Source: Picocystis sp. L7
Lineage: Eukaryota > Chlorophyta > Picocystophyceae > Picocystales > Picocystaceae
Assembly: GCA_020975725.1 (NCBI GenBank)
Contig: QXJR01000009.1
Location: 620,001-684,000 of the forward strand
DNA: 64,000 nucleotides
Reading direction: 5' to 3'
In this document: piece after piece, positions 1 to 43,041 of the stretch
Layout of the letters: each line of letters opens with the position of its first letter
How positions within the stretch are numbered: position 1 is the stretch's first letter
The notes under the pieces: model-generated
Database searches by the model: none
Told to the model about the DNA's origin: nothing
Seen by the model: the letters and a program-made list of their open reading frames with translations, nothing else
Made by a program: the position numbers and the translations under genes

Positions 1-719
1 GTGTTCGTCTTGCTGCTGTCGAAGCAAAACGAAAAGATCTCCATCTCATCAGGAGATGTGTTGGCCTTGGCAGTAGAGATCCCAAAGTTCTCTAGTTTCA
101 AGCGTGACCTCCACTCATCTCCTCGGTTCAAGGCATGCAAGGACCATGCAAAGGCAGCCCTGTGTTGGATGCCTGCTCCTCCCTTGGCCAAGAAGACCTT
201 GTGAAGCTTCCTCTCATCCTCATGCTCGAGCCTACGAGGCCGGAGACTTCCAGCATCACGAATCCTCTTGCCCTTTGCCTTTGTGGCTGCTTGGACGTAA
301 AATTCCAGGACGTCCGTGTGGACATTGTGCCTGGTGTTCCATCCTCTCGTCCGTGCAGTGTGTAGCAAGAGCTCATTGAGTGCACTTCTGGTGGACTTGA
401 GGCTGGACAAGGTAGCCCCTCCCCCGATGGAACGAAAGAATCGGTCCGTCCATTGGAGGAACTCGGTCGGGGATTGGATCCTGCTGAGGACATCATCGCT
501 TTCCAATGGGGCATCGGATTCGATTGGCTGCTTCCCCAACCACTTGAGGAAGGCGGAGACGCGGAGTTCGTACATCCGCCGGGTGCTGGGGGACTGCCTG
601 CCACGTAGACCACGGGCAATGTCCTCGCCAGTAGGTTCCGGAACGACCGCGGCAGCGCACGCGGACGGAGCCAAGTCTTCTGGGGGAGCCGTCGGCACTC
701 CTGCGATGCGCACAACCAC
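1..719 (-). CDS. Crypton-type tyrosine recombinase, 5' part only (window edge)
   Basis: This reads the first 239 or so codons of the recombinase described in full at 3995-6103; the remainder lies outside the window. The part seen holds the N-terminal DNA-binding/SAM-like portion and the start of the catalytic core, including the motif RGDEWRSRLKLENF. It is identical to the three full copies. Confidence 0.75.
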   Translation of the reverse strand, partial: MVVRIAGVPTAPPEDLAPSACAAAVVPEPTGEDIARGLRGRQSPSTRRMYELRVSAFLKWLGKQPIESDAPLESDDVLSRIQSPTEFLQWTDRFFRSIGGGATLSSLKSTRSALNELLLHTARTRGWNTRHNVHTDVLEFYVQAATKAKGKRIRDAGSLRPRRLEHEDERKLHKVFLAKGGAGIQHRAAFAWSLHALNRGDEWRSRLKLENFGISTAKANTSPDEMEIFSFCFDSSKTN

Positions 720-1199
720 GGGTCAGCGACACGAACCCGCCGTCCCTGCCGCGCGCGCGACCAGCCTCCGCCAGTCGGTCCGCCGAGCCAACCGTCGACA
801 TCCTGCGCGAGGTCCAAGCAAGACCTCGACGCAATTCCTTGTATCCGGATCGTCGTTCGGACTGCTTAGGCGGAAGAATTTGGTGGAACGCTCGTTTCGA
901 TCCGCTACGAACTCGTCGACTCCAGTTTCGGTGGCATGTCGGCCGACGAGGTCGGCAGCGCGACTGTGCGAACTCATCGGCACGGCTCAGCATCGATGCG
1001 CACCATCGTTTTCGGGCATGTCGAACCCGTCCTTGCGGTTCGACAGTGTTCTCGAAGCGCTAGAACGCTCCTGTTGTGCGCACTTTCGAATCGGGTTCGA
1101 CGCGACGCATCAGGGACCCCCTCTCGGTGAGGGAGAGGGAGGGAGAGGACCCTGCGCTTGTCCCTTCCTGCAGGGTGATGGGACCGACGCTGTGGTGTG
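720..1199. promoter_or_regulatory. Divergent intergenic region between recombinase and resolvase
   Basis: About 480 bp separates the recombinase reading frame (leftward) from the resolvase ATG (rightward), so it must hold both promoters. It is rich in TCGA and TTCGAA-like words. The recombinase frame opens with GTG and has no in-frame ATG until codon 49, so a short first exon of that gene may also lie here. The same region recurs at 6104-6583, 11488-11967 and 16872-17351. Confidence 0.5.
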
Positions 1200-2027
1200 A
1201 TGGAGACCAGTGCAACCATTCGATTCCACGTCGAAATCGAGTCATTCGACGATCAAAGGACTCTCAATCATCCGTTTCACCCATCCGACTGCGAGCGCAA
1301 TCGACACTCTACTGCCTGGGCAGGCTCTGCAGACGACATGTCCGAACCGATCGCCATCTCTTCCGAGGACGACCTGTTGGAAGAGGTCCCTGCCACCAGA
1401 AAAACGGCAATCCGCACTAGTTCGGAAACTCGTTGCTTGGTGGCGATTGATCCAGACACGCAAGGTGCAGTGGCAATCCATCGAGACGACACCTGGTGTG
1501 TGGTCGACTGCCCGTCCTTCCTGGTGCAAGGAAGACGGTCCTACGATGTCCCAGGAATGGCACGTCTCCTCCGAGAACACAATCTCAGAGATGCGTATGT
1601 GTACATCGAGAAGCAAATTTCCATTCCAGCATCGACCGCATGGTCCATTCACTCCACTGCCTACGGCATGGGACTATGGCATGGAGCATGTGTTGCTGCA
1701 GGGTGTAAGGTGGTCCTGTTGCCACACACCCAGTGGCAAAGGGCTAGAGATGATCAAGTGAGGGAGTGGACTGATGCTGGACTCTGGAGTGAAGAGACAC
1801 AAATGCTGAAGAGGAAGAGCAGAGGGGCTGAGAGACCAAAAAAAGACAAGCATCATTACAACAAGAAAAGAAGTTTCGAAGCTGCCAAAAGGCTCTTTCC
1901 TGAGCTTGCAACCCACCTGGTCCATGTCAGCCATCATCATGGAAGGGCAGAGGCACTGCTGATGGGGTGGTTTGCACTCAAACAGCCCTGCAGCATGGTG
2001 CCTTGGACTTCTGCAAATCGGTCATGA
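1200..2027 (+). CDS. RuvC-fold (MOC1-like) Holliday junction resolvase, copy 1
   Basis: This 275-residue protein is identical to the copy at 6584-7411, where the motifs are described. It lies in the partial leftmost unit and is itself complete. A second in-frame ATG at 1338 would give a 229-residue protein starting MSEPIAISS. Confidence 0.75.
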   Translation: METSATIRFHVEIESFDDQRTLNHPFHPSDCERNRHSTAWAGSADDMSEPIAISSEDDLLEEVPATRKTAIRTSSETRCLVAIDPDTQGAVAIHRDDTWCVVDCPSFLVQGRRSYDVPGMARLLREHNLRDAYVYIEKQISIPASTAWSIHSTAYGMGLWHGACVAAGCKVVLLPHTQWQRARDDQVREWTDAGLWSEETQMLKRKSRGAERPKKDKHHYNKKRSFEAAKRLFPELATHLVHVSHHHGRAEALLMGWFALKQPCSMVPWTSANRS

Positions 2028-2760
2028 AAGTCTTCGAATGTCTTTCCTGCACCAACCCACAAACACACAAAGCAGTCAGCCATTTCTTTTCCAATACACC
2101 CCACGAAGCTCCTTGAGGGTGTGGCCTAGTTTCTCTGCTCATGCACGGCCAACAGCCAGCCAACTTGTGGCTGCAACCTGCGTACTTCCCATGCACCCAT
2201 CTTTCCATCCCACCATGCCCCCAACTGCTCCTGTTTCCCTCCCTACCTTACCTTTGGCTGTTTCCTAAGCATGAGGAGGGAAGTGGGAGTCTTTCCTGCC
2301 CCTCCTGGAAAGGCTTCCACCTCCCTCCAGCAGTGATCAGCTTCCTTCTCCCACTTTGGAAAGCAGCAGCTCCAGCTCCTCTGCACCGTCCAGCTTCCGC
2401 CGCCTCCTTGCTTGCATCCAACCCTCCAGCATCCGGTTGCATTTTTCGACGACGGTGTCCAGGCACCGTTCCATCGCTTCCACCACGCAGCTCGCTATCG
2501 CTTTGCACCAGCACACGCCCTTCTGCAGCGTCGTTCTGTCCTCCCTCTCTCGACGATCGATCCACGCGCCCTTTCGACCGTTGAGAGAGGGAAGGCGCTT
2601 CGCTTCCCCCCCCCTCCTTCCTCTTCTCTTCTTCCCACACGCTCCTGGGCTTCTCTTCCTTCGCCTCCCTTGCGCCTCCGCTCCTTCCATCCACGCGTTC
2701 GTCCGGCTGGGTCCTCCGTTGATCCGTCTCCCTTCGTCTTCTTTTCCTCTCTCTCTGTGT

Positions 2761-2796
2761 GTCTCCTTGGGTTACTTGCGAGTATCCCAAGGAGAC
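2761..2796. repeat. Hairpin in element right end
   Basis: The arms GTCTCCTTGGG (2761-2771) and CCCAAGGAGAC (2786-2796) are perfect reverse complements. The loop side adds four more pairs (TACT/AGTA) after one T-T mismatch, leaving a 4-nt loop TGCG. It recurs at 8145, 13529 and 18913. It could be a protein-binding site, a replication hairpin or a transcript-end structure. Confidence 0.75.
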
Positions 2797-2860
2797 CCCC
2801 TCGGAGAATCTCTCGGAGAGAACCGACCCCCCCCTTCGGGAATGCCGGCTCTCCCGGGCA

Positions 2861-2930
2861 ATCTCCGGGAGATCGACCCAACTTGGGTTATCCCCTCGGT
2901 ATCTCAAGGAGGGGTCGATCTCCCGGAGAT
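2861..2930. repeat. Candidate recombinase site: 19-bp inverted repeat, 32-bp spacer
   Basis: The left arm ATCTCCGGGAGATCGACCC (2861-2879) is the exact reverse complement of the right arm GGGTCGATCTCCCGGAGAT (2912-2930). The unit boundary (2900/2901) lies in the spacer. This geometry, two inverted binding arms around a crossover region, is typical of tyrosine recombinase sites. Here the site joins the partial unit to the first full unit. Confidence 0.7.
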
Positions 2931-3154
2931 CGGGGGGGTCCGGTCCCGGGTCCCTCTCCTTGGGTTTTGAGGGGCGGGGAGAGGGAATATCTGAGTCGAA
3001 GGGATATCGATGCCTCGACCGAAAAGTCTCCGGGAGATCGCCCCGGAGATCGATCGCGGTTAACTTTCGTCCAAAACACGAATATCTTCCAAGGAGGGAT
3101 TTCGATGGCGGGGATCGACATCTCGAGGGATTCGACCGAAGAACACAGATCGTC

Positions 3155-3196
3155 ATCAAAATATCATCCAGGGACTTCCTTGGGTGATATTTTGAT
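3155..3196. repeat. Hairpin in element left end
   Basis: The arms ATCAAAATATCA (3155-3166) and TGATATTTTGAT (3185-3196) are perfect inverted repeats. The pairing extends inward by four positions with one mismatch (TCCA against TGGG). It recurs at 8539 and 13923 and is absent after the array's right end, as expected for a left-end feature. Confidence 0.75.
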
Positions 3197-3994
3197 CTCA
3201 ATGGAAGCGAGGTATCGATGAGCCTCGATCCGTCCCAGACGAGGTGGATCCTCGGAAGAGCCGACTCCGAGACCGGGATGCCTCCTGCGAACCCGGCAGA
3301 AGGGTGGCAAAATCCCACTGGTGGTGAAAACCCACACCAGATCGACGAAGACAAGAAGACGACGACGACGCTTGCGGGCTCCATCGCAGGCCACAAGGAG
3401 CACGCAGGCGCCGTCGTCGAAGGAAGAAGATGAAGGAAAAGAAGAAGAAGAAGAAGAGCGGGTGGGGGGAGGTTGGAGCGCGCGTGCGAAAAGAGGAGGG
3501 AAGCGGCGAGGAAGGAAGGACGTTGCTGGACGAATGGACTGGACAGCCGGTGCCAAGGGGCACCCACGACGGGTGGAAACGGCTGGAGGCAGAAGCGGGA
3601 GGGGCTTCTCCTGTGCGCGGGAGGTGGCGTTCGCGACGCAGGTGCTTCGTGGCATCCACGAGCACCTGCCAGCGACGACCCACGCACAGGAGAAGAACCT
3701 CGAAACGAAGATGCGAGCGTGGGAAAGGAAAGGCGTGGGAAGATGCGTCTGCAGCCGTGCAGGCATACCTCGTGGGGAAGGTGGTGGGTCGAGGGGGTTG
3801 GGGTCGAAGGGCAGCCACGCTGCACCGTGACGACGGTGAAGGGCGAGGGAGCTGTCGAACGTGCGAGCGACTGCGAAAGGATGTGGGATGCGTTCGAAAA
3901 AGCAACAAGGCAATTACAATGGCTGACTGTGTGTGCTTGATCAGTCATGCCCAAAATGGACCCAAAGGAGCCCAAGGTCCATGGGGAGGCCTTT

Positions 3995-6103
3995 TCAGTG
4001 CTGCTCGAGCATGGCAAAGGCAGAGTCCACCCAACTTTTGTCTGGAAGCTTGCCAAGCAAGGTCCCAAGTCTCCAGGAAGGCTGGTTGCGCAAAAGCCGA
4101 GCGAGCTTCAGCAAGCAGTCCATGGGGCCTTGGGGGTGTCCTTCCACCAGCTTCACAAATGTTGTAATTTTATACCAGGTCTGCTGGTTCTTCTTCCTCC
4201 TTTCACTTGTTTCTGCATCCCTCCACTTCTTCTTTGTCTTTTCCTCAGCCTCCTTGTAGCTGAGATGAATGTCAGAACCAGTAGCATAGGCCTCCCACAA
4301 CTCCAAGGGGCCCGAGAATACTGCAAATTCTTGGGGGAGGATGGGCAATTCTCTCAACTGAGAAGGCATTGAGGCTGTGGCACCAGGTGCTTCAGGAGTA
4401 GTGCCAGGGTGGTCTTCACTCAATGGGGGGCTGACTGCCACTTGCTTGCATTTGATGCACAGCCCATGGGATGGCACAACCTGTCCCATCGGCTGTTGTT
4501 TGGAGCTGTTGGCTGTGGAAAGGCTGTCCAGTTTGCCCATAATGCTGTGGGCTACCCCATGAACAGCCATCTTCAGCTCCATCATATCATTTGCCTGCTC
4601 AAGCTTCACAAGGGAGTCATCAGTGGCTTGCACATGCAAAATTCTTTGCTGAAACTCCTTCCACATGGGATGCTTGAACACGGGATGCCTCCAAAGGGCA
4701 CATGAAGGCAGCTCTTCCATGAGCACAGCACAGTCTTGTAATAGAATGTCCCTTCCTCTGAGCATGGCCTCCAAGAAAAAAGCAATGGCTGTATCCTTGT
4801 CCCTTGCTTCCATGGGGAGTGCTGAATATGCATCCACCACAGCATCCATCTCTGGCCATATCATCCTTGAGAGCTCCACGGGCGGAGTGATTCTGCCTCT
4901 TGGCAAGCAATAGGAGTGCAAGTCAGGAGCTCCTGATGCTGCCAACACATTGGACACACTCACATCATTCAAGTAGTGCTTGTCCATCCTGTTTTGGGAC
5001 CACCTTCCAGCAGCTTGGACATCATATCGTGTGGTGCACTGGTGGTCATCCAGTTGTCGTGCACCAAGTGTCCTGAGGTGGGTGGTCTTGGACTGAAGCA
5101 CCTTCTTGCCCACTCCTGCTTCTGCCATAACCTCTTTAAAGAAAGACCTCTGACCTTCATAGCCCATCTCCTTTCCATACTTGTTCACATAGACAGGGTG
5201 CCCATACCATGGGAAGTCGTACCCGTCTCTCTTCAAGCTTTCCACCATATCCACCGAGATGGGAAACGTCATCCCACCCAACTGTGGTGTGAACCTCCAC
5301 ATCATAGACATGAAGAAGGAAGAAACGGGGCAGAGCAAGGCATCCAAGTGCCTTGCTGCCCCAATAGTTTCAATGTGCCCTTCTGTGTTCGTCTTGCTGC
5401 TGTCGAAGCAAAACGAAAAGATCTCCATCTCATCAGGAGATGTGTTGGCCTTGGCAGTAGAGATCCCAAAGTTCTCTAGTTTCAAGCGTGACCTCCACTC
5501 ATCTCCTCGGTTCAAGGCATGCAAGGACCATGCAAAGGCAGCCCTGTGTTGGATGCCTGCTCCTCCCTTGGCCAAGAAGACCTTGTGAAGCTTCCTCTCA
5601 TCCTCATGCTCGAGCCTACGAGGCCGGAGACTTCCAGCATCACGAATCCTCTTGCCCTTTGCCTTTGTGGCTGCTTGGACGTAAAATTCCAGGACGTCCG
5701 TGTGGACATTGTGCCTGGTGTTCCATCCTCTCGTCCGTGCAGTGTGTAGCAAGAGCTCATTGAGTGCACTTCTGGTGGACTTGAGGCTGGACAAGGTAGC
5801 CCCTCCCCCGATGGAACGAAAGAATCGGTCCGTCCATTGGAGGAACTCGGTCGGGGATTGGATCCTGCTGAGGACATCATCGCTTTCCAATGGGGCATCG
5901 GATTCGATTGGCTGCTTCCCCAACCACTTGAGGAAGGCGGAGACGCGGAGTTCGTACATCCGCCGGGTGCTGGGGGACTGCCTGCCACGTAGACCACGGG
6001 CAATGTCCTCGCCAGTAGGTTCCGGAACGACCGCGGCAGCGCACGCGGACGGAGCCAAGTCTTCTGGGGGAGCCGTCGGCACTCCTGCGATGCGCACAAC
6101 CAC
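3995..6103 (-). CDS. Crypton-type tyrosine recombinase with GCR1_C-like tail (unit A)
   Basis: A 702-residue frame resembling Crypton recombinases. Residues about 40-130 form a SAM-like DNA-binding domain. Residues about 160-380 form an Ndc10/CBF3-like catalytic core: arginine-rich box RGDEWRSRLKLENF (199-212), CPVSSFFMSM (258-267), THLRTLGARQL with candidate H342/R344, AAGRW (364-368), and MDKHYL with the likely nucleophile Y377. Residues about 585-690 (LELWEAY, WRDAETSERRKKNQ, TWYKITTFVK) resemble the GCR1_C DNA-binding domain found at the end of fungal-type Cryptons. Its predicted job is to recombine the element's end site with a target. The frame starts with GTG; the first ATG is codon 49 (5959), so the true start is either that ATG or a spliced upstream exon. 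It looks intact. Confidence 0.85.
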   Translation of the reverse strand: MVVRIAGVPTAPPEDLAPSACAAAVVPEPTGEDIARGLRGRQSPSTRRMYELRVSAFLKWLGKQPIESDAPLESDDVLSRIQSPTEFLQWTDRFFRSIGGGATLSSLKSTRSALNELLLHTARTRGWNTRHNVHTDVLEFYVQAATKAKGKRIRDAGSLRPRRLEHEDERKLHKVFLAKGGAGIQHRAAFAWSLHALNRGDEWRSRLKLENFGISTAKANTSPDEMEIFSFCFDSSKTNTEGHIETIGAARHLDALLCPVSSFFMSMMWRFTPQLGGMTFPISVDMVESLKRDGYDFPWYGHPVYVNKYGKEMGYEGQRSFFKEVMAEAGVGKKVLQSKTTHLRTLGARQLDDHQCTTRYDVQAAGRWSQNRMDKHYLNDVSVSNVLAASGAPDLHSYCLPRGRITPPVELSRMIWPEMDAVVDAYSALPMEARDKDTAIAFFLEAMLRGRDILLQDCAVLMEELPSCALWRHPVFKHPMWKEFQQRILHVQATDDSLVKLEQANDMMELKMAVHGVAHSIMGKLDSLSTANSSKQQPMGQVVPSHGLCIKCKQVAVSPPLSEDHPGTTPEAPGATASMPSQLRELPILPQEFAVFSGPLELWEAYATGSDIHLSYKEAEEKTKKKWRDAETSERRKKNQQTWYKITTFVKLVEGHPQGPMDCLLKLARLLRNQPSWRLGTLLGKLPDKSWVDSAFAMLEQH

Positions 6104-6583
6104 GGGTCAGCGACACGAACCCGCCGTCCCTGCCGCGCGCGCGACCAGCCTCCGCCAGTCGGTCCGCCGAGCCAACCGTCGACATCCTGCGCGAGGTCCA
6201 AGCAAGACCTCGACGCAATTCCTTGTATCCGGATCGTCGTTCGGACTGCTTAGGCGGAAGAATTTGGTGGAACGCTCGTTTCGATCCGCTACGAACTCGT
6301 CGACTCCAGTTTCGGTGGCATGTCGGCCGACGAGGTCGGCAGCGCGACTGTGCGAACTCATCGGCACGGCTCAGCATCGATGCGCACCATCGTTTTCGGG
6401 CATGTCGAACCCGTCCTTGCGGTTCGACAGTGTTCTCGAAGCGCTAGAACGCTCCTGTTGTGCGCACTTTCGAATCGGGTTCGACGCGACGCATCAGGGA
6501 CCCCCTCTCGGTGAGGGAGAGGGAGGGAGAGGACCCTGCGCTTGTCCCTTCCTGCAGGGTGATGGGACCGACGCTGTGGTGTG

Positions 6584-7411
6584 ATGGAGACCAGTGCAAC
6601 CATTCGATTCCACGTCGAAATCGAGTCATTCGACGATCAAAGGACTCTCAATCATCCGTTTCACCCATCCGACTGCGAGCGCAATCGACACTCTACTGCC
6701 TGGGCAGGCTCTGCAGACGACATGTCCGAACCGATCGCCATCTCTTCCGAGGACGACCTGTTGGAAGAGGTCCCTGCCACCAGAAAAACGGCAATCCGCA
6801 CTAGTTCGGAAACTCGTTGCTTGGTGGCGATTGATCCAGACACGCAAGGTGCAGTGGCAATCCATCGAGACGACACCTGGTGTGTGGTCGACTGCCCGTC
6901 CTTCCTGGTGCAAGGAAGACGGTCCTACGATGTCCCAGGAATGGCACGTCTCCTCCGAGAACACAATCTCAGAGATGCGTATGTGTACATCGAGAAGCAA
7001 ATTTCCATTCCAGCATCGACCGCATGGTCCATTCACTCCACTGCCTACGGCATGGGACTATGGCATGGAGCATGTGTTGCTGCAGGGTGTAAGGTGGTCC
7101 TGTTGCCACACACCCAGTGGCAAAGGGCTAGAGATGATCAAGTGAGGGAGTGGACTGATGCTGGACTCTGGAGTGAAGAGACACAAATGCTGAAGAGGAA
7201 GAGCAGAGGGGCTGAGAGACCAAAAAAAGACAAGCATCATTACAACAAGAAAAGAAGTTTCGAAGCTGCCAAAAGGCTCTTTCCTGAGCTTGCAACCCAC
7301 CTGGTCCATGTCAGCCATCATCATGGAAGGGCAGAGGCACTGCTGATGGGGTGGTTTGCACTCAAACAGCCCTGCAGCATGGTGCCTTGGACTTCTGCAA
7401 ATCGGTCATGA
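6584..7411 (+). CDS. RuvC-fold (MOC1-like) Holliday junction resolvase (unit A)
   Basis: A 275-residue protein starting at ATG 6584. The RuvC-type core begins at residue 80 with LVAIDPDTQGAVAI (catalytic D84 candidate). YIEKQ supplies E137, and the C-terminal motif HHHGRAEALL (245-254) supplies E251. The middle part RSFEAAKRLFPELA also matches the plant chloroplast resolvase MOC1, which cleaves four-way DNA junctions. In MOC1-type proteins I recall an Asp just before GRAEALL; here it is His247. The first 75 or so residues are acidic and low in structure. Its divergent partner is the recombinase, so it probably resolves recombination or replication intermediates of the element. A later ATG at 6722 is possible. 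Host-like origin by capture is an inference. Confidence 0.82.
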   Translation: METSATIRFHVEIESFDDQRTLNHPFHPSDCERNRHSTAWAGSADDMSEPIAISSEDDLLEEVPATRKTAIRTSSETRCLVAIDPDTQGAVAIHRDDTWCVVDCPSFLVQGRRSYDVPGMARLLREHNLRDAYVYIEKQISIPASTAWSIHSTAYGMGLWHGACVAAGCKVVLLPHTQWQRARDDQVREWTDAGLWSEETQMLKRKSRGAERPKKDKHHYNKKRSFEAAKRLFPELATHLVHVSHHHGRAEALLMGWFALKQPCSMVPWTSANRS

Positions 7412-8244
7412 AAGTCTTCGAATGTCTTTCCTGCACCAACCCACAAACACACAAAGCAGTCAGCCATTTCTTTTCCAATACACCCCACGAAGCTCCTTGA
7501 GGGTGTGGCCTAGTTTCTCTGCTCATGCACGGCCAACAGCCAGCCAACTTGTGGCTGCAACCTGCGTACTTCCCATGCACCCATCTTTCCATCCCACCAT
7601 GCCCCCAACTGCTCCTGTTTCCCTCCCTACCTTACCTTTGGCTGTTTCCTAAGCATGAGGAGGGAAGTGGGAGTCTTTCCTGCCCCTCCTGGAAAGGCTT
7701 CCACCTCCCTCCAGCAGTGATCAGCTTCCTTCTCCCACTTTGGAAAGCAGCAGCTCCAGCTCCTCTGCACCGTCCAGCTTCCGCCGCCTCCTTGCTTGCA
7801 TCCAACCCTCCAGCATCCGGTTGCATTTTTCGACGACGGTGTCCAGGCACCGTTCCATCGCTTCCACCACGCAGCTCGCTATCGCTTTGCACCAGCACAC
7901 GCCCTTCTGCAGCGTCGTTCTGTCCTCCCTCTCTCGACGATCGATCCACGCGCCCTTTCGACCGTTGAGAGAGGGAAGGCGCTTCGCTTCCCCCCCCCTC
8001 CTTCCTCTTCTCTTCTTCCCACACGCTCCTGGGCTTCTCTTCCTTCGCCTCCCTTGCGCCTCCGCTCCTTCCATCCACGCGTTCGTCCGGCTGGGTCCTC
8101 CGTTGATCCGTCTCCCTTCGTCTTCTTTTCCTCTCTCTCTGTGTGTCTCCTTGGGTTACTTGCGAGTATCCCAAGGAGACCCCCTCGGAGAATCTCTCGG
8201 AGAGAACCGACCCCCCCCTTCGGGAATGCCGGCTCTCCCGGGCA

Positions 8245-8314
8245 ATCTCCGGGAGATCGACCCAACTTGGGTTATCCCCTCGGTATCTCAAGGAGGGGTC
8301 GATCTCCCGGAGAT
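8245..8314. repeat. Candidate recombinase site between units A and B
   Basis: Exact copy of the 19-bp inverted repeat with 32-bp spacer (arms 8245-8263 and 8296-8314). The unit boundary 8284/8285 lies in the spacer. Confidence 0.7.
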
Positions 8315-9378
8315 CGGGGGGGTCCGGTCCCGGGTCCCTCTCCTTGGGTTTTGAGGGGCGGGGAGAGGGAATATCTGAGTCGAAGGGATATCGATGCCTC
8401 GACCGAAAAGTCTCCGGGAGATCGCCCCGGAGATCGATCGCGGTTAACTTTCGTCCAAAACACGAATATCTTCCAAGGAGGGATTTCGATGGCGGGGATC
8501 GACATCTCGAGGGATTCGACCGAAGAACACAGATCGTCATCAAAATATCATCCAGGGACTTCCTTGGGTGATATTTTGATCTCAATGGAAGCGAGGTATC
8601 GATGAGCCTCGATCCGTCCCAGACGAGGTGGATCCTCGGAAGAGCCGACTCCGAGACCGGGATGCCTCCTGCGAACCCGGCAGAAGGGTGGCAAAATCCC
8701 ACTGGTGGTGAAAACCCACACCAGATCGACGAAGACAAGAAGACGACGACGACGCTTGCGGGCTCCATCGCAGGCCACAAGGAGCACGCAGGCGCCGTCG
8801 TCGAAGGAAGAAGATGAAGGAAAAGAAGAAGAAGAAGAAGAGCGGGTGGGGGGAGGTTGGAGCGCGCGTGCGAAAAGAGGAGGGAAGCGGCGAGGAAGGA
8901 AGGACGTTGCTGGACGAATGGACTGGACAGCCGGTGCCAAGGGGCACCCACGACGGGTGGAAACGGCTGGAGGCAGAAGCGGGAGGGGCTTCTCCTGTGC
9001 GCGGGAGGTGGCGTTCGCGACGCAGGTGCTTCGTGGCATCCACGAGCACCTGCCAGCGACGACCCACGCACAGGAGAAGAACCTCGAAACGAAGATGCGA
9101 GCGTGGGAAAGGAAAGGCGTGGGAAGATGCGTCTGCAGCCGTGCAGGCATACCTCGTGGGGAAGGTGGTGGGTCGAGGGGGTTGGGGTCGAAGGGCAGCC
9201 ACGCTGCACCGTGACGACGGTGAAGGGCGAGGGAGCTGTCGAACGTGCGAGCGACTGCGAAAGGATGTGGGATGCGTTCGAAAAAGCAACAAGGCAATTA
9301 CAATGGCTGACTGTGTGTGCTTGATCAGTCATGCCCAAAATGGACCCAAAGGAGCCCAAGGTCCATGGGGAGGCCTTT

Positions 9379-11487
9379 TCAGTGCTGCTCGAGCATGGCA
9401 AAGGCAGAGTCCACCCAACTTTTGTCTGGAAGCTTGCCAAGCAAGGTCCCAAGTCTCCAGGAAGGCTGGTTGCGCAAAAGCCGAGCGAGCTTCAGCAAGC
9501 AGTCCATGGGGCCTTGGGGGTGTCCTTCCACCAGCTTCACAAATGTTGTAATTTTATACCAGGTCTGCTGGTTCTTCTTCCTCCTTTCACTTGTTTCTGC
9601 ATCCCTCCACTTCTTCTTTGTCTTTTCCTCAGCCTCCTTGTAGCTGAGATGAATGTCAGAACCAGTAGCATAGGCCTCCCACAACTCCAAGGGGCCCGAG
9701 AATACTGCAAATTCTTGGGGGAGGATGGGCAATTCTCTCAACTGAGAAGGCATTGAGGCTGTGGCACCAGGTGCTTCAGGAGTAGTGCCAGGGTGGTCTT
9801 CACTCAATGGGGGGCTGACTGCCACTTGCTTGCATTTGATGCACAGCCCATGGGATGGCACAACCTGTCCCATCGGCTGTTGTTTGGAGCTGTTGGCTGT
9901 GGAAAGGCTGTCCAGTTTGCCCATAATGCTGTGGGCTACCCCATGAACAGCCATCTTCAGCTCCATCATATCATTTGCCTGCTCAAGCTTCACAAGGGAG
10001 TCATCAGTGGCTTGCACATGCAAAATTCTTTGCTGAAACTCCTTCCACATGGGATGCTTGAACACGGGATGCCTCCAAAGGGCACATGAAGGCAGCTCTT
10101 CCATGAGCACAGCACAGTCTTGTAATAGAATGTCCCTTCCTCTGAGCATGGCCTCCAAGAAAAAAGCAATGGCTGTATCCTTGTCCCTTGCTTCCATGGG
10201 GAGTGCTGAATATGCATCCACCACAGCATCCATCTCTGGCCATATCATCCTTGAGAGCTCCACGGGCGGAGTGATTCTGCCTCTTGGCAAGCAATAGGAG
10301 TGCAAGTCAGGAGCTCCTGATGCTGCCAACACATTGGACACACTCACATCATTCAAGTAGTGCTTGTCCATCCTGTTTTGGGACCACCTTCCAGCAGCTT
10401 GGACATCATATCGTGTGGTGCACTGGTGGTCATCCAGTTGTCGTGCACCAAGTGTCCTGAGGTGGGTGGTCTTGGACTGAAGCACCTTCTTGCCCACTCC
10501 TGCTTCTGCCATAACCTCTTTAAAGAAAGACCTCTGACCTTCATAGCCCATCTCCTTTCCATACTTGTTCACATAGACAGGGTGCCCATACCATGGGAAG
10601 TCGTACCCGTCTCTCTTCAAGCTTTCCACCATATCCACCGAGATGGGAAACGTCATCCCACCCAACTGTGGTGTGAACCTCCACATCATAGACATGAAGA
10701 AGGAAGAAACGGGGCAGAGCAAGGCATCCAAGTGCCTTGCTGCCCCAATAGTTTCAATGTGCCCTTCTGTGTTCGTCTTGCTGCTGTCGAAGCAAAACGA
10801 AAAGATCTCCATCTCATCAGGAGATGTGTTGGCCTTGGCAGTAGAGATCCCAAAGTTCTCTAGTTTCAAGCGTGACCTCCACTCATCTCCTCGGTTCAAG
10901 GCATGCAAGGACCATGCAAAGGCAGCCCTGTGTTGGATGCCTGCTCCTCCCTTGGCCAAGAAGACCTTGTGAAGCTTCCTCTCATCCTCATGCTCGAGCC
11001 TACGAGGCCGGAGACTTCCAGCATCACGAATCCTCTTGCCCTTTGCCTTTGTGGCTGCTTGGACGTAAAATTCCAGGACGTCCGTGTGGACATTGTGCCT
11101 GGTGTTCCATCCTCTCGTCCGTGCAGTGTGTAGCAAGAGCTCATTGAGTGCACTTCTGGTGGACTTGAGGCTGGACAAGGTAGCCCCTCCCCCGATGGAA
11201 CGAAAGAATCGGTCCGTCCATTGGAGGAACTCGGTCGGGGATTGGATCCTGCTGAGGACATCATCGCTTTCCAATGGGGCATCGGATTCGATTGGCTGCT
11301 TCCCCAACCACTTGAGGAAGGCGGAGACGCGGAGTTCGTACATCCGCCGGGTGCTGGGGGACTGCCTGCCACGTAGACCACGGGCAATGTCCTCGCCAGT
11401 AGGTTCCGGAACGACCGCGGCAGCGCACGCGGACGGAGCCAAGTCTTCTGGGGGAGCCGTCGGCACTCCTGCGATGCGCACAACCAC
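9379..11487 (-). CDS. Crypton-type tyrosine recombinase (unit B)
   Basis: 702-residue frame identical to the one at 3995-6103, with the same uncertain start (GTG at 11487, first ATG at 11343). Intact. Confidence 0.85.
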   Translation of the reverse strand: MVVRIAGVPTAPPEDLAPSACAAAVVPEPTGEDIARGLRGRQSPSTRRMYELRVSAFLKWLGKQPIESDAPLESDDVLSRIQSPTEFLQWTDRFFRSIGGGATLSSLKSTRSALNELLLHTARTRGWNTRHNVHTDVLEFYVQAATKAKGKRIRDAGSLRPRRLEHEDERKLHKVFLAKGGAGIQHRAAFAWSLHALNRGDEWRSRLKLENFGISTAKANTSPDEMEIFSFCFDSSKTNTEGHIETIGAARHLDALLCPVSSFFMSMMWRFTPQLGGMTFPISVDMVESLKRDGYDFPWYGHPVYVNKYGKEMGYEGQRSFFKEVMAEAGVGKKVLQSKTTHLRTLGARQLDDHQCTTRYDVQAAGRWSQNRMDKHYLNDVSVSNVLAASGAPDLHSYCLPRGRITPPVELSRMIWPEMDAVVDAYSALPMEARDKDTAIAFFLEAMLRGRDILLQDCAVLMEELPSCALWRHPVFKHPMWKEFQQRILHVQATDDSLVKLEQANDMMELKMAVHGVAHSIMGKLDSLSTANSSKQQPMGQVVPSHGLCIKCKQVAVSPPLSEDHPGTTPEAPGATASMPSQLRELPILPQEFAVFSGPLELWEAYATGSDIHLSYKEAEEKTKKKWRDAETSERRKKNQQTWYKITTFVKLVEGHPQGPMDCLLKLARLLRNQPSWRLGTLLGKLPDKSWVDSAFAMLEQH

Positions 11488-11967
11488 GGGTCAGCGACAC
11501 GAACCCGCCGTCCCTGCCGCGCGCGCGACCAGCCTCCGCCAGTCGGTCCGCCGAGCCAACCGTCGACATCCTGCGCGAGGTCCAAGCAAGACCTCGACGC
11601 AATTCCTTGTATCCGGATCGTCGTTCGGACTGCTTAGGCGGAAGAATTTGGTGGAACGCTCGTTTCGATCCGCTACGAACTCGTCGACTCCAGTTTCGGT
11701 GGCATGTCGGCCGACGAGGTCGGCAGCGCGACTGTGCGAACTCATCGGCACGGCTCAGCATCGATGCGCACCATCGTTTTCGGGCATGTCGAACCCGTCC
11801 TTGCGGTTCGACAGTGTTCTCGAAGCGCTAGAACGCTCCTGTTGTGCGCACTTTCGAATCGGGTTCGACGCGACGCATCAGGGACCCCCTCTCGGTGAGG
11901 GAGAGGGAGGGAGAGGACCCTGCGCTTGTCCCTTCCTGCAGGGTGATGGGACCGACGCTGTGGTGTG

Positions 11968-12795
11968 ATGGAGACCAGTGCAACCATTCGATTCCACGTC
12001 GAAATCGAGTCATTCGACGATCAAAGGACTCTCAATCATCCGTTTCACCCATCCGACTGCGAGCGCAATCGACACTCTACTGCCTGGGCAGGCTCTGCAG
12101 ACGACATGTCCGAACCGATCGCCATCTCTTCCGAGGACGACCTGTTGGAAGAGGTCCCTGCCACCAGAAAAACGGCAATCCGCACTAGTTCGGAAACTCG
12201 TTGCTTGGTGGCGATTGATCCAGACACGCAAGGTGCAGTGGCAATCCATCGAGACGACACCTGGTGTGTGGTCGACTGCCCGTCCTTCCTGGTGCAAGGA
12301 AGACGGTCCTACGATGTCCCAGGAATGGCACGTCTCCTCCGAGAACACAATCTCAGAGATGCGTATGTGTACATCGAGAAGCAAATTTCCATTCCAGCAT
12401 CGACCGCATGGTCCATTCACTCCACTGCCTACGGCATGGGACTATGGCATGGAGCATGTGTTGCTGCAGGGTGTAAGGTGGTCCTGTTGCCACACACCCA
12501 GTGGCAAAGGGCTAGAGATGATCAAGTGAGGGAGTGGACTGATGCTGGACTCTGGAGTGAAGAGACACAAATGCTGAAGAGGAAGAGCAGAGGGGCTGAG
12601 AGACCAAAAAAAGACAAGCATCATTACAACAAGAAAAGAAGTTTCGAAGCTGCCAAAAGGCTCTTTCCTGAGCTTGCAACCCACCTGGTCCATGTCAGCC
12701 ATCATCATGGAAGGGCAGAGGCACTGCTGATGGGGTGGTTTGCACTCAAACAGCCCTGCAGCATGGTGCCTTGGACTTCTGCAAATCGGTCATGA
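11968..12795 (+). CDS. RuvC-fold (MOC1-like) resolvase (unit B)
   Basis: 275 residues, identical to the copy at 6584-7411. Intact. Confidence 0.82.
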   Translation: METSATIRFHVEIESFDDQRTLNHPFHPSDCERNRHSTAWAGSADDMSEPIAISSEDDLLEEVPATRKTAIRTSSETRCLVAIDPDTQGAVAIHRDDTWCVVDCPSFLVQGRRSYDVPGMARLLREHNLRDAYVYIEKQISIPASTAWSIHSTAYGMGLWHGACVAAGCKVVLLPHTQWQRARDDQVREWTDAGLWSEETQMLKRKSRGAERPKKDKHHYNKKRSFEAAKRLFPELATHLVHVSHHHGRAEALLMGWFALKQPCSMVPWTSANRS

Positions 12796-13628
12796 AAGTC
12801 TTCGAATGTCTTTCCTGCACCAACCCACAAACACACAAAGCAGTCAGCCATTTCTTTTCCAATACACCCCACGAAGCTCCTTGAGGGTGTGGCCTAGTTT
12901 CTCTGCTCATGCACGGCCAACAGCCAGCCAACTTGTGGCTGCAACCTGCGTACTTCCCATGCACCCATCTTTCCATCCCACCATGCCCCCAACTGCTCCT
13001 GTTTCCCTCCCTACCTTACCTTTGGCTGTTTCCTAAGCATGAGGAGGGAAGTGGGAGTCTTTCCTGCCCCTCCTGGAAAGGCTTCCACCTCCCTCCAGCA
13101 GTGATCAGCTTCCTTCTCCCACTTTGGAAAGCAGCAGCTCCAGCTCCTCTGCACCGTCCAGCTTCCGCCGCCTCCTTGCTTGCATCCAACCCTCCAGCAT
13201 CCGGTTGCATTTTTCGACGACGGTGTCCAGGCACCGTTCCATCGCTTCCACCACGCAGCTCGCTATCGCTTTGCACCAGCACACGCCCTTCTGCAGCGTC
13301 GTTCTGTCCTCCCTCTCTCGACGATCGATCCACGCGCCCTTTCGACCGTTGAGAGAGGGAAGGCGCTTCGCTTCCCCCCCCCTCCTTCCTCTTCTCTTCT
13401 TCCCACACGCTCCTGGGCTTCTCTTCCTTCGCCTCCCTTGCGCCTCCGCTCCTTCCATCCACGCGTTCGTCCGGCTGGGTCCTCCGTTGATCCGTCTCCC
13501 TTCGTCTTCTTTTCCTCTCTCTCTGTGTGTCTCCTTGGGTTACTTGCGAGTATCCCAAGGAGACCCCCTCGGAGAATCTCTCGGAGAGAACCGACCCCCC
13601 CCTTCGGGAATGCCGGCTCTCCCGGGCA

Positions 13629-13698
13629 ATCTCCGGGAGATCGACCCAACTTGGGTTATCCCCTCGGTATCTCAAGGAGGGGTCGATCTCCCGGAGAT
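13629..13698. repeat. Candidate recombinase site between units B and C
   Basis: Exact copy of the 19-bp inverted repeat (arms 13629-13647 and 13680-13698) around the unit boundary 13668/13669. Confidence 0.7.
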
Positions 13699-14762
13699 CG
13701 GGGGGGTCCGGTCCCGGGTCCCTCTCCTTGGGTTTTGAGGGGCGGGGAGAGGGAATATCTGAGTCGAAGGGATATCGATGCCTCGACCGAAAAGTCTCCG
13801 GGAGATCGCCCCGGAGATCGATCGCGGTTAACTTTCGTCCAAAACACGAATATCTTCCAAGGAGGGATTTCGATGGCGGGGATCGACATCTCGAGGGATT
13901 CGACCGAAGAACACAGATCGTCATCAAAATATCATCCAGGGACTTCCTTGGGTGATATTTTGATCTCAATGGAAGCGAGGTATCGATGAGCCTCGATCCG
14001 TCCCAGACGAGGTGGATCCTCGGAAGAGCCGACTCCGAGACCGGGATGCCTCCTGCGAACCCGGCAGAAGGGTGGCAAAATCCCACTGGTGGTGAAAACC
14101 CACACCAGATCGACGAAGACAAGAAGACGACGACGACGCTTGCGGGCTCCATCGCAGGCCACAAGGAGCACGCAGGCGCCGTCGTCGAAGGAAGAAGATG
14201 AAGGAAAAGAAGAAGAAGAAGAAGAGCGGGTGGGGGGAGGTTGGAGCGCGCGTGCGAAAAGAGGAGGGAAGCGGCGAGGAAGGAAGGACGTTGCTGGACG
14301 AATGGACTGGACAGCCGGTGCCAAGGGGCACCCACGACGGGTGGAAACGGCTGGAGGCAGAAGCGGGAGGGGCTTCTCCTGTGCGCGGGAGGTGGCGTTC
14401 GCGACGCAGGTGCTTCGTGGCATCCACGAGCACCTGCCAGCGACGACCCACGCACAGGAGAAGAACCTCGAAACGAAGATGCGAGCGTGGGAAAGGAAAG
14501 GCGTGGGAAGATGCGTCTGCAGCCGTGCAGGCATACCTCGTGGGGAAGGTGGTGGGTCGAGGGGGTTGGGGTCGAAGGGCAGCCACGCTGCACCGTGACG
14601 ACGGTGAAGGGCGAGGGAGCTGTCGAACGTGCGAGCGACTGCGAAAGGATGTGGGATGCGTTCGAAAAAGCAACAAGGCAATTACAATGGCTGACTGTGT
14701 GTGCTTGATCAGTCATGCCCAAAATGGACCCAAAGGAGCCCAAGGTCCATGGGGAGGCCTTT

Positions 14763-16871
14763 TCAGTGCTGCTCGAGCATGGCAAAGGCAGAGTCCACCC
14801 AACTTTTGTCTGGAAGCTTGCCAAGCAAGGTCCCAAGTCTCCAGGAAGGCTGGTTGCGCAAAAGCCGAGCGAGCTTCAGCAAGCAGTCCATGGGGCCTTG
14901 GGGGTGTCCTTCCACCAGCTTCACAAATGTTGTAATTTTATACCAGGTCTGCTGGTTCTTCTTCCTCCTTTCACTTGTTTCTGCATCCCTCCACTTCTTC
15001 TTTGTCTTTTCCTCAGCCTCCTTGTAGCTGAGATGAATGTCAGAACCAGTAGCATAGGCCTCCCACAACTCCAAGGGGCCCGAGAATACTGCAAATTCTT
15101 GGGGGAGGATGGGCAATTCTCTCAACTGAGAAGGCATTGAGGCTGTGGCACCAGGTGCTTCAGGAGTAGTGCCAGGGTGGTCTTCACTCAATGGGGGGCT
15201 GACTGCCACTTGCTTGCATTTGATGCACAGCCCATGGGATGGCACAACCTGTCCCATCGGCTGTTGTTTGGAGCTGTTGGCTGTGGAAAGGCTGTCCAGT
15301 TTGCCCATAATGCTGTGGGCTACCCCATGAACAGCCATCTTCAGCTCCATCATATCATTTGCCTGCTCAAGCTTCACAAGGGAGTCATCAGTGGCTTGCA
15401 CATGCAAAATTCTTTGCTGAAACTCCTTCCACATGGGATGCTTGAACACGGGATGCCTCCAAAGGGCACATGAAGGCAGCTCTTCCATGAGCACAGCACA
15501 GTCTTGTAATAGAATGTCCCTTCCTCTGAGCATGGCCTCCAAGAAAAAAGCAATGGCTGTATCCTTGTCCCTTGCTTCCATGGGGAGTGCTGAATATGCA
15601 TCCACCACAGCATCCATCTCTGGCCATATCATCCTTGAGAGCTCCACGGGCGGAGTGATTCTGCCTCTTGGCAAGCAATAGGAGTGCAAGTCAGGAGCTC
15701 CTGATGCTGCCAACACATTGGACACACTCACATCATTCAAGTAGTGCTTGTCCATCCTGTTTTGGGACCACCTTCCAGCAGCTTGGACATCATATCGTGT
15801 GGTGCACTGGTGGTCATCCAGTTGTCGTGCACCAAGTGTCCTGAGGTGGGTGGTCTTGGACTGAAGCACCTTCTTGCCCACTCCTGCTTCTGCCATAACC
15901 TCTTTAAAGAAAGACCTCTGACCTTCATAGCCCATCTCCTTTCCATACTTGTTCACATAGACAGGGTGCCCATACCATGGGAAGTCGTACCCGTCTCTCT
16001 TCAAGCTTTCCACCATATCCACCGAGATGGGAAACGTCATCCCACCCAACTGTGGTGTGAACCTCCACATCATAGACATGAAGAAGGAAGAAACGGGGCA
16101 GAGCAAGGCATCCAAGTGCCTTGCTGCCCCAATAGTTTCAATGTGCCCTTCTGTGTTCGTCTTGCTGCTGTCGAAGCAAAACGAAAAGATCTCCATCTCA
16201 TCAGGAGATGTGTTGGCCTTGGCAGTAGAGATCCCAAAGTTCTCTAGTTTCAAGCGTGACCTCCACTCATCTCCTCGGTTCAAGGCATGCAAGGACCATG
16301 CAAAGGCAGCCCTGTGTTGGATGCCTGCTCCTCCCTTGGCCAAGAAGACCTTGTGAAGCTTCCTCTCATCCTCATGCTCGAGCCTACGAGGCCGGAGACT
16401 TCCAGCATCACGAATCCTCTTGCCCTTTGCCTTTGTGGCTGCTTGGACGTAAAATTCCAGGACGTCCGTGTGGACATTGTGCCTGGTGTTCCATCCTCTC
16501 GTCCGTGCAGTGTGTAGCAAGAGCTCATTGAGTGCACTTCTGGTGGACTTGAGGCTGGACAAGGTAGCCCCTCCCCCGATGGAACGAAAGAATCGGTCCG
16601 TCCATTGGAGGAACTCGGTCGGGGATTGGATCCTGCTGAGGACATCATCGCTTTCCAATGGGGCATCGGATTCGATTGGCTGCTTCCCCAACCACTTGAG
16701 GAAGGCGGAGACGCGGAGTTCGTACATCCGCCGGGTGCTGGGGGACTGCCTGCCACGTAGACCACGGGCAATGTCCTCGCCAGTAGGTTCCGGAACGACC
16801 GCGGCAGCGCACGCGGACGGAGCCAAGTCTTCTGGGGGAGCCGTCGGCACTCCTGCGATGCGCACAACCAC
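14763..16871 (-). CDS. Crypton-type tyrosine recombinase (unit C)
   Basis: 702-residue frame identical to that at 3995-6103, same start uncertainty (GTG 16871, first ATG 16727). Intact. Confidence 0.85.
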   Translation of the reverse strand: MVVRIAGVPTAPPEDLAPSACAAAVVPEPTGEDIARGLRGRQSPSTRRMYELRVSAFLKWLGKQPIESDAPLESDDVLSRIQSPTEFLQWTDRFFRSIGGGATLSSLKSTRSALNELLLHTARTRGWNTRHNVHTDVLEFYVQAATKAKGKRIRDAGSLRPRRLEHEDERKLHKVFLAKGGAGIQHRAAFAWSLHALNRGDEWRSRLKLENFGISTAKANTSPDEMEIFSFCFDSSKTNTEGHIETIGAARHLDALLCPVSSFFMSMMWRFTPQLGGMTFPISVDMVESLKRDGYDFPWYGHPVYVNKYGKEMGYEGQRSFFKEVMAEAGVGKKVLQSKTTHLRTLGARQLDDHQCTTRYDVQAAGRWSQNRMDKHYLNDVSVSNVLAASGAPDLHSYCLPRGRITPPVELSRMIWPEMDAVVDAYSALPMEARDKDTAIAFFLEAMLRGRDILLQDCAVLMEELPSCALWRHPVFKHPMWKEFQQRILHVQATDDSLVKLEQANDMMELKMAVHGVAHSIMGKLDSLSTANSSKQQPMGQVVPSHGLCIKCKQVAVSPPLSEDHPGTTPEAPGATASMPSQLRELPILPQEFAVFSGPLELWEAYATGSDIHLSYKEAEEKTKKKWRDAETSERRKKNQQTWYKITTFVKLVEGHPQGPMDCLLKLARLLRNQPSWRLGTLLGKLPDKSWVDSAFAMLEQH

Positions 16872-17351
16872 GGGTCAGCGACACGAACCCGCCGTCCCTG
16901 CCGCGCGCGCGACCAGCCTCCGCCAGTCGGTCCGCCGAGCCAACCGTCGACATCCTGCGCGAGGTCCAAGCAAGACCTCGACGCAATTCCTTGTATCCGG
17001 ATCGTCGTTCGGACTGCTTAGGCGGAAGAATTTGGTGGAACGCTCGTTTCGATCCGCTACGAACTCGTCGACTCCAGTTTCGGTGGCATGTCGGCCGACG
17101 AGGTCGGCAGCGCGACTGTGCGAACTCATCGGCACGGCTCAGCATCGATGCGCACCATCGTTTTCGGGCATGTCGAACCCGTCCTTGCGGTTCGACAGTG
17201 TTCTCGAAGCGCTAGAACGCTCCTGTTGTGCGCACTTTCGAATCGGGTTCGACGCGACGCATCAGGGACCCCCTCTCGGTGAGGGAGAGGGAGGGAGAGG
17301 ACCCTGCGCTTGTCCCTTCCTGCAGGGTGATGGGACCGACGCTGTGGTGTG

Positions 17352-18179
17352 ATGGAGACCAGTGCAACCATTCGATTCCACGTCGAAATCGAGTCATTCG
17401 ACGATCAAAGGACTCTCAATCATCCGTTTCACCCATCCGACTGCGAGCGCAATCGACACTCTACTGCCTGGGCAGGCTCTGCAGACGACATGTCCGAACC
17501 GATCGCCATCTCTTCCGAGGACGACCTGTTGGAAGAGGTCCCTGCCACCAGAAAAACGGCAATCCGCACTAGTTCGGAAACTCGTTGCTTGGTGGCGATT
17601 GATCCAGACACGCAAGGTGCAGTGGCAATCCATCGAGACGACACCTGGTGTGTGGTCGACTGCCCGTCCTTCCTGGTGCAAGGAAGACGGTCCTACGATG
17701 TCCCAGGAATGGCACGTCTCCTCCGAGAACACAATCTCAGAGATGCGTATGTGTACATCGAGAAGCAAATTTCCATTCCAGCATCGACCGCATGGTCCAT
17801 TCACTCCACTGCCTACGGCATGGGACTATGGCATGGAGCATGTGTTGCTGCAGGGTGTAAGGTGGTCCTGTTGCCACACACCCAGTGGCAAAGGGCTAGA
17901 GATGATCAAGTGAGGGAGTGGACTGATGCTGGACTCTGGAGTGAAGAGACACAAATGCTGAAGAGGAAGAGCAGAGGGGCTGAGAGACCAAAAAAAGACA
18001 AGCATCATTACAACAAGAAAAGAAGTTTCGAAGCTGCCAAAAGGCTCTTTCCTGAGCTTGCAACCCACCTGGTCCATGTCAGCCATCATCATGGAAGGGC
18101 AGAGGCACTGCTGATGGGGTGGTTTGCACTCAAACAGCCCTGCAGCATGGTGCCTTGGACTTCTGCAAATCGGTCATGA
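17352..18179 (+). CDS. RuvC-fold (MOC1-like) resolvase (unit C)
   Basis: 275 residues, identical to the copy at 6584-7411. This is the copy nearest to host DNA. Intact. Confidence 0.82.
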   Translation: METSATIRFHVEIESFDDQRTLNHPFHPSDCERNRHSTAWAGSADDMSEPIAISSEDDLLEEVPATRKTAIRTSSETRCLVAIDPDTQGAVAIHRDDTWCVVDCPSFLVQGRRSYDVPGMARLLREHNLRDAYVYIEKQISIPASTAWSIHSTAYGMGLWHGACVAAGCKVVLLPHTQWQRARDDQVREWTDAGLWSEETQMLKRKSRGAERPKKDKHHYNKKRSFEAAKRLFPELATHLVHVSHHHGRAEALLMGWFALKQPCSMVPWTSANRS

Positions 18180-19012
18180 AAGTCTTCGAATGTCTTTCCT
18201 GCACCAACCCACAAACACACAAAGCAGTCAGCCATTTCTTTTCCAATACACCCCACGAAGCTCCTTGAGGGTGTGGCCTAGTTTCTCTGCTCATGCACGG
18301 CCAACAGCCAGCCAACTTGTGGCTGCAACCTGCGTACTTCCCATGCACCCATCTTTCCATCCCACCATGCCCCCAACTGCTCCTGTTTCCCTCCCTACCT
18401 TACCTTTGGCTGTTTCCTAAGCATGAGGAGGGAAGTGGGAGTCTTTCCTGCCCCTCCTGGAAAGGCTTCCACCTCCCTCCAGCAGTGATCAGCTTCCTTC
18501 TCCCACTTTGGAAAGCAGCAGCTCCAGCTCCTCTGCACCGTCCAGCTTCCGCCGCCTCCTTGCTTGCATCCAACCCTCCAGCATCCGGTTGCATTTTTCG
18601 ACGACGGTGTCCAGGCACCGTTCCATCGCTTCCACCACGCAGCTCGCTATCGCTTTGCACCAGCACACGCCCTTCTGCAGCGTCGTTCTGTCCTCCCTCT
18701 CTCGACGATCGATCCACGCGCCCTTTCGACCGTTGAGAGAGGGAAGGCGCTTCGCTTCCCCCCCCCTCCTTCCTCTTCTCTTCTTCCCACACGCTCCTGG
18801 GCTTCTCTTCCTTCGCCTCCCTTGCGCCTCCGCTCCTTCCATCCACGCGTTCGTCCGGCTGGGTCCTCCGTTGATCCGTCTCCCTTCGTCTTCTTTTCCT
18901 CTCTCTCTGTGTGTCTCCTTGGGTTACTTGCGAGTATCCCAAGGAGACCCCCTCGGAGAATCTCTCGGAGAGAACCGACCCCCCCCTTCGGGAATGCCGG
19001 CTCTCCCGGGCA

Positions 19013-19052
19013 ATCTCCGGGAGATCGACCCAACTTGGGTTATCCCCTCGGT
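19013..19052. repeat. Half recombinase site at the right array end
   Basis: The left 19-bp arm (19013-19031) and the first 21 bp of the spacer are kept, then the sequence switches to host DNA. The right arm (GGGTCGATCTCCCGGAGAT) is not found just downstream. This is the expected product when a circle recombines into a target that lacks the second arm. Confidence 0.7.
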
Positions 19053-42743: not shown

Positions 42744-43041
42744 GCCCCTCCCCCACCCTCTCCCACCCTCTCCCTCTCTCATCCTCCCTCCCCCACCCTC
42801 TCCCCCTCTCCCTCCCTCTCCCTCCCTCTCCCCCTCTCCCTCTCACCCTCTCCCTCCCTCTCCCCCTCTCCCCCTCTCCCCCTCTCCCTACCTCATCCTC
42901 CCTCTCTCCTCCCACCATCTCCCTCTCTCCCCCAACCACCCACTGCTCCCCTCTCCTCCTCCCTCTCTCCTCCTCTCTCCCCCCACCACCCCCTGCTCCC
43001 CTCACCCTCTCCCTGGGCTGACCTCTCACCCTCACCCTCTG
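42744..43041. repeat. Homopyrimidine (CT-rich) tract, about 300 bp
   Basis: Nearly unbroken runs of CCCTCTCCC/CTCTCC type on the plus strand (GA-rich on the minus strand). It is immediately upstream of the MDR gene. Such tracts can form triplex (H-) DNA and are often nucleosome-poor. Frames across it are repeats of Pro/Ser/Leu and are not genes. Confidence 0.85.

Follow-up and report, generated by a model that had tools for sequence, protein, structure and literature searches.

A tandem array of a two-gene mobile unit

The stretch of Picocystis sp. L7 DNA analysed here, 64,000 nucleotides long and called the window below (C7:620001-684000, where C-numbers designate the contigs of the source genome, 20.5 Mb in 30 contigs), opens on a tandem array of a mobile element carrying two divergent genes, one for a predicted Crypton-type tyrosine recombinase and the other for a putative RuvC/MOC1-type Holliday-junction resolvase. 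Window positions 1-19052, the part of the array that the window contains, repeat with an exact period of 5384 bp and 0 mismatches, and the whole array (C7:601360-639052) corresponds to seven letter-identical tandem units of 5384 bp plus 5 bases. Unique sequence borders it on the left and on the right, and the unit limits were set from these edges: positions 2901-8284 make up exactly one unit, with a short core at its end. Assembling identical units is difficult, and their number here, seven, could be an artefact of assembly. The first-pass annotation had placed both genes in a single mobile unit, and both are indeed found within this 5384-bp repeat. Elements of the C7 type are referred to as lineage A, and those of a second type, found on contigs C14 and C27, as lineage B.

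The minus-strand gene encodes a tyrosine recombinase that its sequence assigns to the Crypton/Ndc10 type, with a clear match to the Pfam family NDC10_II in lineage A (E = 1.6e-22) as well as in lineage B (E = 1.9e-17). Its open frame (3995-6103, 702 aa) lacks an early ATG, and the predicted gene model joins a 16-base exon 1 (6403-6388, start ATG at 6403), across a 303-base intron, to exon 2 (3995-6084, minus strand), giving a protein of 701 aa. The same exon 1 and splice sites are kept in L072, a contig from another organism described below, where the intron measures 331 bases. Six residues (R199, K237, H342, R344, W368, and Y377) are invariant among five aligned recombinases, and we take them to be candidate catalytic residues. 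The Ndc10-like core announced by the first-pass annotation was therefore recovered, whereas the GCR1_C-like tail that it also proposed remained marginal (E = 0.21 in lineage A and 0.074 in L072, both under the Pfam cut-off) and had no Pfam match in the recombinases of lineage B and contig C22. The recombinase alignment, used as a profile against the PDB, gave nothing at E up to 1, and an NCBIfam search nothing relevant.

A predicted RuvC/MOC1-type resolvase with six MOC1 active-site residues

The plus-strand gene (6584-7411) encodes a protein of 275 aa, the start of which is probably the ATG at 6584, as in the database protein P0001; further copies in the window lie on the same strand at 1200-2027, 11968-12795, and 17352-18179. 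The lineage A protein matches the plant resolvase NtMOC1 (phmmer, E = 5.8e-12) and the ‘Holliday junction resolvase’ family PHROG_1770 (E = 8e-13), and a profile built from four lineage A sequences matches ZmMOC1 (E = 8.7e-22); no Pfam family was matched at E up to 5. It keeps all six residues of the MOC1 active site (D115, D117, E174, K229, H253, and E257; PMC11183143). The shorter resolvase of lineage B, of about 210 aa in a set spanning 208-275 aa, matches PHROG_1770 (E = 9.1e-9) and, more weakly, MOC1 structures (1.4e-3 as a single sequence, 3.9e-4 as a profile). The prediction of a RuvC-fold Holliday-junction resolvase of MOC1 type, already made from the letters of the sequence, is thus well supported by these matches. 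In both resolvases an N-terminal hydrophobic stretch is followed by Ser/acidic residues (MSEPIAISSEDD, MHHEVVSVSEGSS; window 6722-6769 and L041:4637-4680). To us this resembles a SUMO-interacting motif, which deserves mention as some Cryptons carry a Ulp1-like peptidase.

Picocystis has its own MOC1, encoded by a separate gene (C4:318970) whose product is 29% identical to the element resolvase; possession of such a gene suggests a plastid-bearing host. A scan of viral contigs with the lineage A resolvase alignment found 24 related loci, whereas viral-contig scans with two single proteins, with the lineage B resolvase alignment, and with the recombinase alignments confirmed no relative. In a tree of plant and host MOC1 (partial MOC1 sequences), the element resolvases, and 13 of the 24 viral loci, host and plant MOC1 group together with 94% bootstrap, lineage A falls outside this group (67% at the next node), and the lineage B resolvase is unplaced. 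Judged by this tree, the element genes are not recent copies of the host MOC1, and the lineage A resolvase is no orthologue of the chloroplast enzyme.

Pairing across the genome in two distant lineages

Lineage A is represented by seven units on C7, three on C12, and one on C20, together with a decayed pair on C11 and resolvase fragments on C24. The C20 copy is broken near its right end by 3.25 kb of sequence, inserted 70 bp from that end with a 6-bp overlap in a C-rich run, as in a nested insertion of another element. Lineage B comprises five units on C14 and two on C27, and there too the resolvase lies divergently beside the recombinase, even though the recombinases of the two lineages share only ~24% identity. 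A genome-wide scan with PHROG_1770 returned 19 hits (E up to 5.5e-7), namely the host MOC1 and 18 others; as expected of a resolvase family, the scan was also positive in 7 of 14 control genomes. All 18 non-host hits adjoin a recombinase among the 31 NDC10_II hits of the genome, at five loci belonging to the two lineages. Six of the 13 other NDC10_II hits are broken or partial, including that on C11, which has a decayed resolvase. The two lineages may have gained their resolvases separately or may descend from one ancient pairing lost elsewhere.

Several degenerate sequences accompany these copies. A 1.96-kb repeat, present at C20:211940-213896 (L045) and C23:197183-199138 (L046) in versions 97% alike, contains only a frame-broken third RuvC-like gene, devoid of a recombinase, with a further protein match at C19:169625; it is perhaps a decayed non-autonomous relative. 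Three left-end pieces of lineage A, 92-100% identical, lie in a row at C3:883416-884862 and are possibly a deletion derivative. Minisatellite-like stretches with repetitive translations occur beside four different recombinase loci (L041:5226-6428, L043:2137-3070, L044:7850-9000, and L047:1605-2346).

The same pair in another organism and signs of selection

Scanning genome contigs with P0005, a protein 50% identical to the recombinase, confirmed one locus out of 37 pattern matches. This locus, L072, is a 5300-base contig (PUNI01000478.1) filed under a Rhodobacteraceae metagenome-assembled genome, and it carries the same divergent pair (89% protein identity for the recombinase, more exactly 88.9%, and 76% for the resolvase, with DNA pieces 84-88% identical); its left end starts at the same place as that of the Picocystis element. 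Since its recombinase has a predicted intron, L072 is probably misbinned eukaryotic DNA. The assembly that holds it has one NDC10_II match, and the lineage B resolvase was not found in it. Protein databases contain a relative of this latter resolvase at 66-70% identity. The first-pass annotation had looked to recurrence elsewhere as support for a system, and the pair does recur, both within this genome, where it occurs with two lineages of recombinase, and in L072.

Between C7 and L072 the resolvase has accumulated 0.136 non-synonymous substitutions per non-synonymous site (dN) and 0.347 synonymous ones per synonymous site (dS), a dN/dS of 0.39, compared with 0.19 for the recombinase. This comparison indicates that the lineage A resolvase has been under purifying selection since the two diverged. 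Both this constraint and the genome-wide co-location with recombinases make a chance origin of the resolvase frame unlikely.

Element ends, unit junctions, and array homogeneity

The element ends bear short direct repeats and no terminal inverted repeats. In lineage A the core is TCGGT at C7 (2896-2900, plus strand, with period copies at 8280-8284, 13664-13668, and 19048-19052, as delimited by the array edges and by its length of seven units plus 5 bases), CGGT at C20, and imperfect at C12, whereas lineage B has GGAACCG at C27 and, on C14, AGGAACCG both at the left boundary of the array and at its first unit junction. Lineage A also has a subterminal inverted repeat: comparison of unit junctions revealed two perfect 19-bp arms around the core (left arm 2861-2879, plus strand; right arm 2912-2930, minus strand), a structure that arises only where a right end joins a left end. 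Folded as single-stranded DNA, positions 2850-2950 score better than 200 of 200 shuffled sequences (z = -5.78). At the lineage B junction the inverted matches reach only 7-9 bp.

Within arrays there is hardly any variation, with 0 substitutions among the C7 units, 0 among the C12 units, 1 between the C27 units, and 0 over the 2.49 kb that was compared at C14, whereas 69 sites separate the units of C7 from those of C12. Such arrays, homogeneous inside and different between loci, must have grown locally, by insertion of multimeric circles, by repeated insertion from one source, or by unequal exchange. The cores and the tandem stacking fit circle excision and re-integration.

Chromosomal setting

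Six of the seven open frames tested beside the C7 array have Pfam matches, to an ABC transporter on its left and, on its right, to ketopantoate reductase, SMP/C2, sortilin, TMF1-like, and rRNA dimethylase proteins. Flanking genes of these families indicate a eukaryotic chromosome. An Rfam search of the window gave no match. Window positions 42745-43014 hold a polypyrimidine minisatellite made of CCCTCTCC-type units, which has no relation to the element.

A proposed dedicated resolvase for the element’s own junctions

We favour, with moderate confidence, the explanation that this is a two-gene Crypton with intact frames whose dedicated RuvC/MOC1-type resolvase would cut four-way junctions arising in the element’s own cycle. 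The identity of the two genes and their pairing are well supported, and the recurrence of the pair in a second, distant lineage and in another organism makes it look like a real two-gene machine; the step that the resolvase serves can be sketched as follows. The recombinase would cut and rejoin DNA at the short CGGT-containing core, and recombination there would let the element travel in circular form and pile up copies at a single site. The resolvase may then act at places left untouched by the recombinase, namely junctions that replication or homologous recombination creates between identical units, its likeliest substrates being those formed during amplification of head-to-tail concatemers or arrays; recombinase-made junctions stalled at the core may be another. 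The enzymatic activity of the resolvase, the circle stage, and the junction that is cut are all parts of this scheme that we infer.

Several observations weigh against this explanation. The four-way junctions that tyrosine recombinases form are also resolved by these enzymes, so that integration by itself needs no resolvase. Seven NDC10_II loci have open frames (545-692 aa) and no resolvase detected by the scan, which implies that not all such recombinases in this genome need one. We read the sequence at three of these seven, around C22, around C4:1128k, and upstream of C1; no resolvase was found in the stretches read beside the C22 and C4:1128k recombinases (46% and 36% identical to that of lineage B, respectively). 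The PHROG_1770 scan did miss the degenerate relatives on C11, C24, and C23, and very divergent resolvases could have escaped it too. Moreover, the resolvase displays no constraint among recent copies, with synonymous/non-synonymous differences of 2/6 between C7 and C12 and 0/6 between C14 and C27, small numbers to be set beside 11/6 and 8/6 for the recombinase in the same comparisons. The lineage B resolvase keeps D115, D117, and K229 of the active site, but E257 is replaced by D and H253 by T, and its E174 column is aligned as V, with a conserved HIE at least one column out of register in both alignments. In favour of the explanation, arrays make up four of the five loci with a resolvase, compared with none clearly so among the seven open-frame loci where no resolvase was detected. 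Only two lineages underlie this association, and a pair of unread C4 recombinase hits 7.1 kb apart may bear on the array count, so we treat it as a lead only.

The open-frame loci devoid of a detected resolvase and the unconstrained recent copies would also suit a passenger, a captured gene of indirect benefit to the element, through an effect on host repair for instance, and with no role in its movement or copying. We consider this unlikely, given that the same kind of protein occupies the same divergent position beside two recombinases only ~24% identical and that it is constrained with respect to L072: random capture would hardly have yielded a junction cutter both times. We find it improbable, too, that the enzyme is a specialised cutter recognising the inverted-repeat unit junction itself, whether as a cruciform or as made by the recombinase, instead of four-way junctions in general. 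The perfect 19-bp repeat found only at right-left junctions, its strong predicted folding, and the replacement in lineage A of the MOC1 base-recognition residues F179 and D182 (PMC7078210) by I and S would agree with such specialisation. However, these positions also differ in the host MOC1 (L and N), the lineage B junction has inverted matches of only 7-9 bp, and the inverted repeat may simply be a binding site of the recombinase.

Two further readings were rejected. The protein is a relative of MOC1 and seven identical units are difficult to assemble, which could evoke a host MOC1 caught in the array, a case that the first-pass annotation had named as refuting its reading, or a misassembly of the pair, but the separate host gene and its grouping with plant MOC1, outside which the element protein falls, contradict the former, and the single C20 copy together with the L072 contig from a different dataset contradicts the latter; we regard both as very improbable. 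A Fanzor/TnpB-type RNA-guided nuclease, suggested by the RuvC-type fold and by reports of Fanzor1 with Crypton recombinases (PMC10711439, PMC3627910), is scarcely credible and was likewise discarded: what the proteins match is MOC1 and a family of Holliday-junction resolvases, Pfam returned nothing at the permissive threshold given above, and their length is only 208-275 aa.

Returning to the dedicated resolvase, a broader version of this explanation, which we put forward only tentatively, would see the element as a eukaryotic tyrosine-recombinase transposon multiplying through head-to-tail concatemers or tandem arrays, whose own resolvase may recognise the unit junction, with its inverted repeat, in four-way or cruciform form and act there, set array size, and free circles, as a transposon counterpart of viral concatemer resolution.

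Comparison with known systems and significance

CryptonF and CryptonS elements of fungi, oomycetes, and a diatom have 4-6-bp direct repeats at their ends and no terminal inverted repeats, and some Cryptons carry a second gene encoding a C48 (Ulp1-like) peptidase (PMC3212892). As far as the accessible part of that source describes them, they resemble the Picocystis element in the tyrosine recombinase, the short end repeats, and the occasional second gene, which is a C48 peptidase there and a RuvC/MOC1-type resolvase here; GCR1_C, present in CryptonF, is marginal here, and homogeneous tandem arrays such as ours were not met in that part of the source. With chloroplast MOC1 (PMC7078210, PMC11183143), the lineage A protein shares sequence similarity across the fold and all six named active-site residues, but it is encoded by a mobile element, is no orthologue by the tree, and has an N-terminal extension and other base-recognition residues. 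The phage resolvases of PHROG_1770 are matched by both element resolvases, and lineage A has its 24 relatives in viral contigs; nevertheless identities are only 22-29%, and in phages a G replaces the second D of the DPD motif kept in MOC1 and the element proteins. Fanzor1-Crypton associations also combine a RuvC-fold nuclease with a Crypton recombinase, but Fanzor1 belongs to an RNA-guided nuclease family and is no Holliday-junction resolvase. A functional analogy, drawn without sequence comparison, can be made with the poxvirus resolvase A22, said to cut concatemer intermediates (PMC13236599): in both cases a replicating element encodes a RuvC-type resolvase, the poxvirus one belonging to a virus and having no recombinase partner of this type. 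In the open-access literature searched, partly through incomplete texts, we found no Crypton with a Holliday-junction resolvase, which is no proof of novelty.

The element indicates that transposons of a kind usually seen as carrying a recombinase only can possess a second, matched enzyme, as two distant lineages do here. Excision of a circle and its re-insertion does not multiply an element, and the means by which Cryptons gain copies are, to our knowledge, an open question. In this element, the resolvase that it brings along and the homogeneous arrays point to a testable replication or recombination step.

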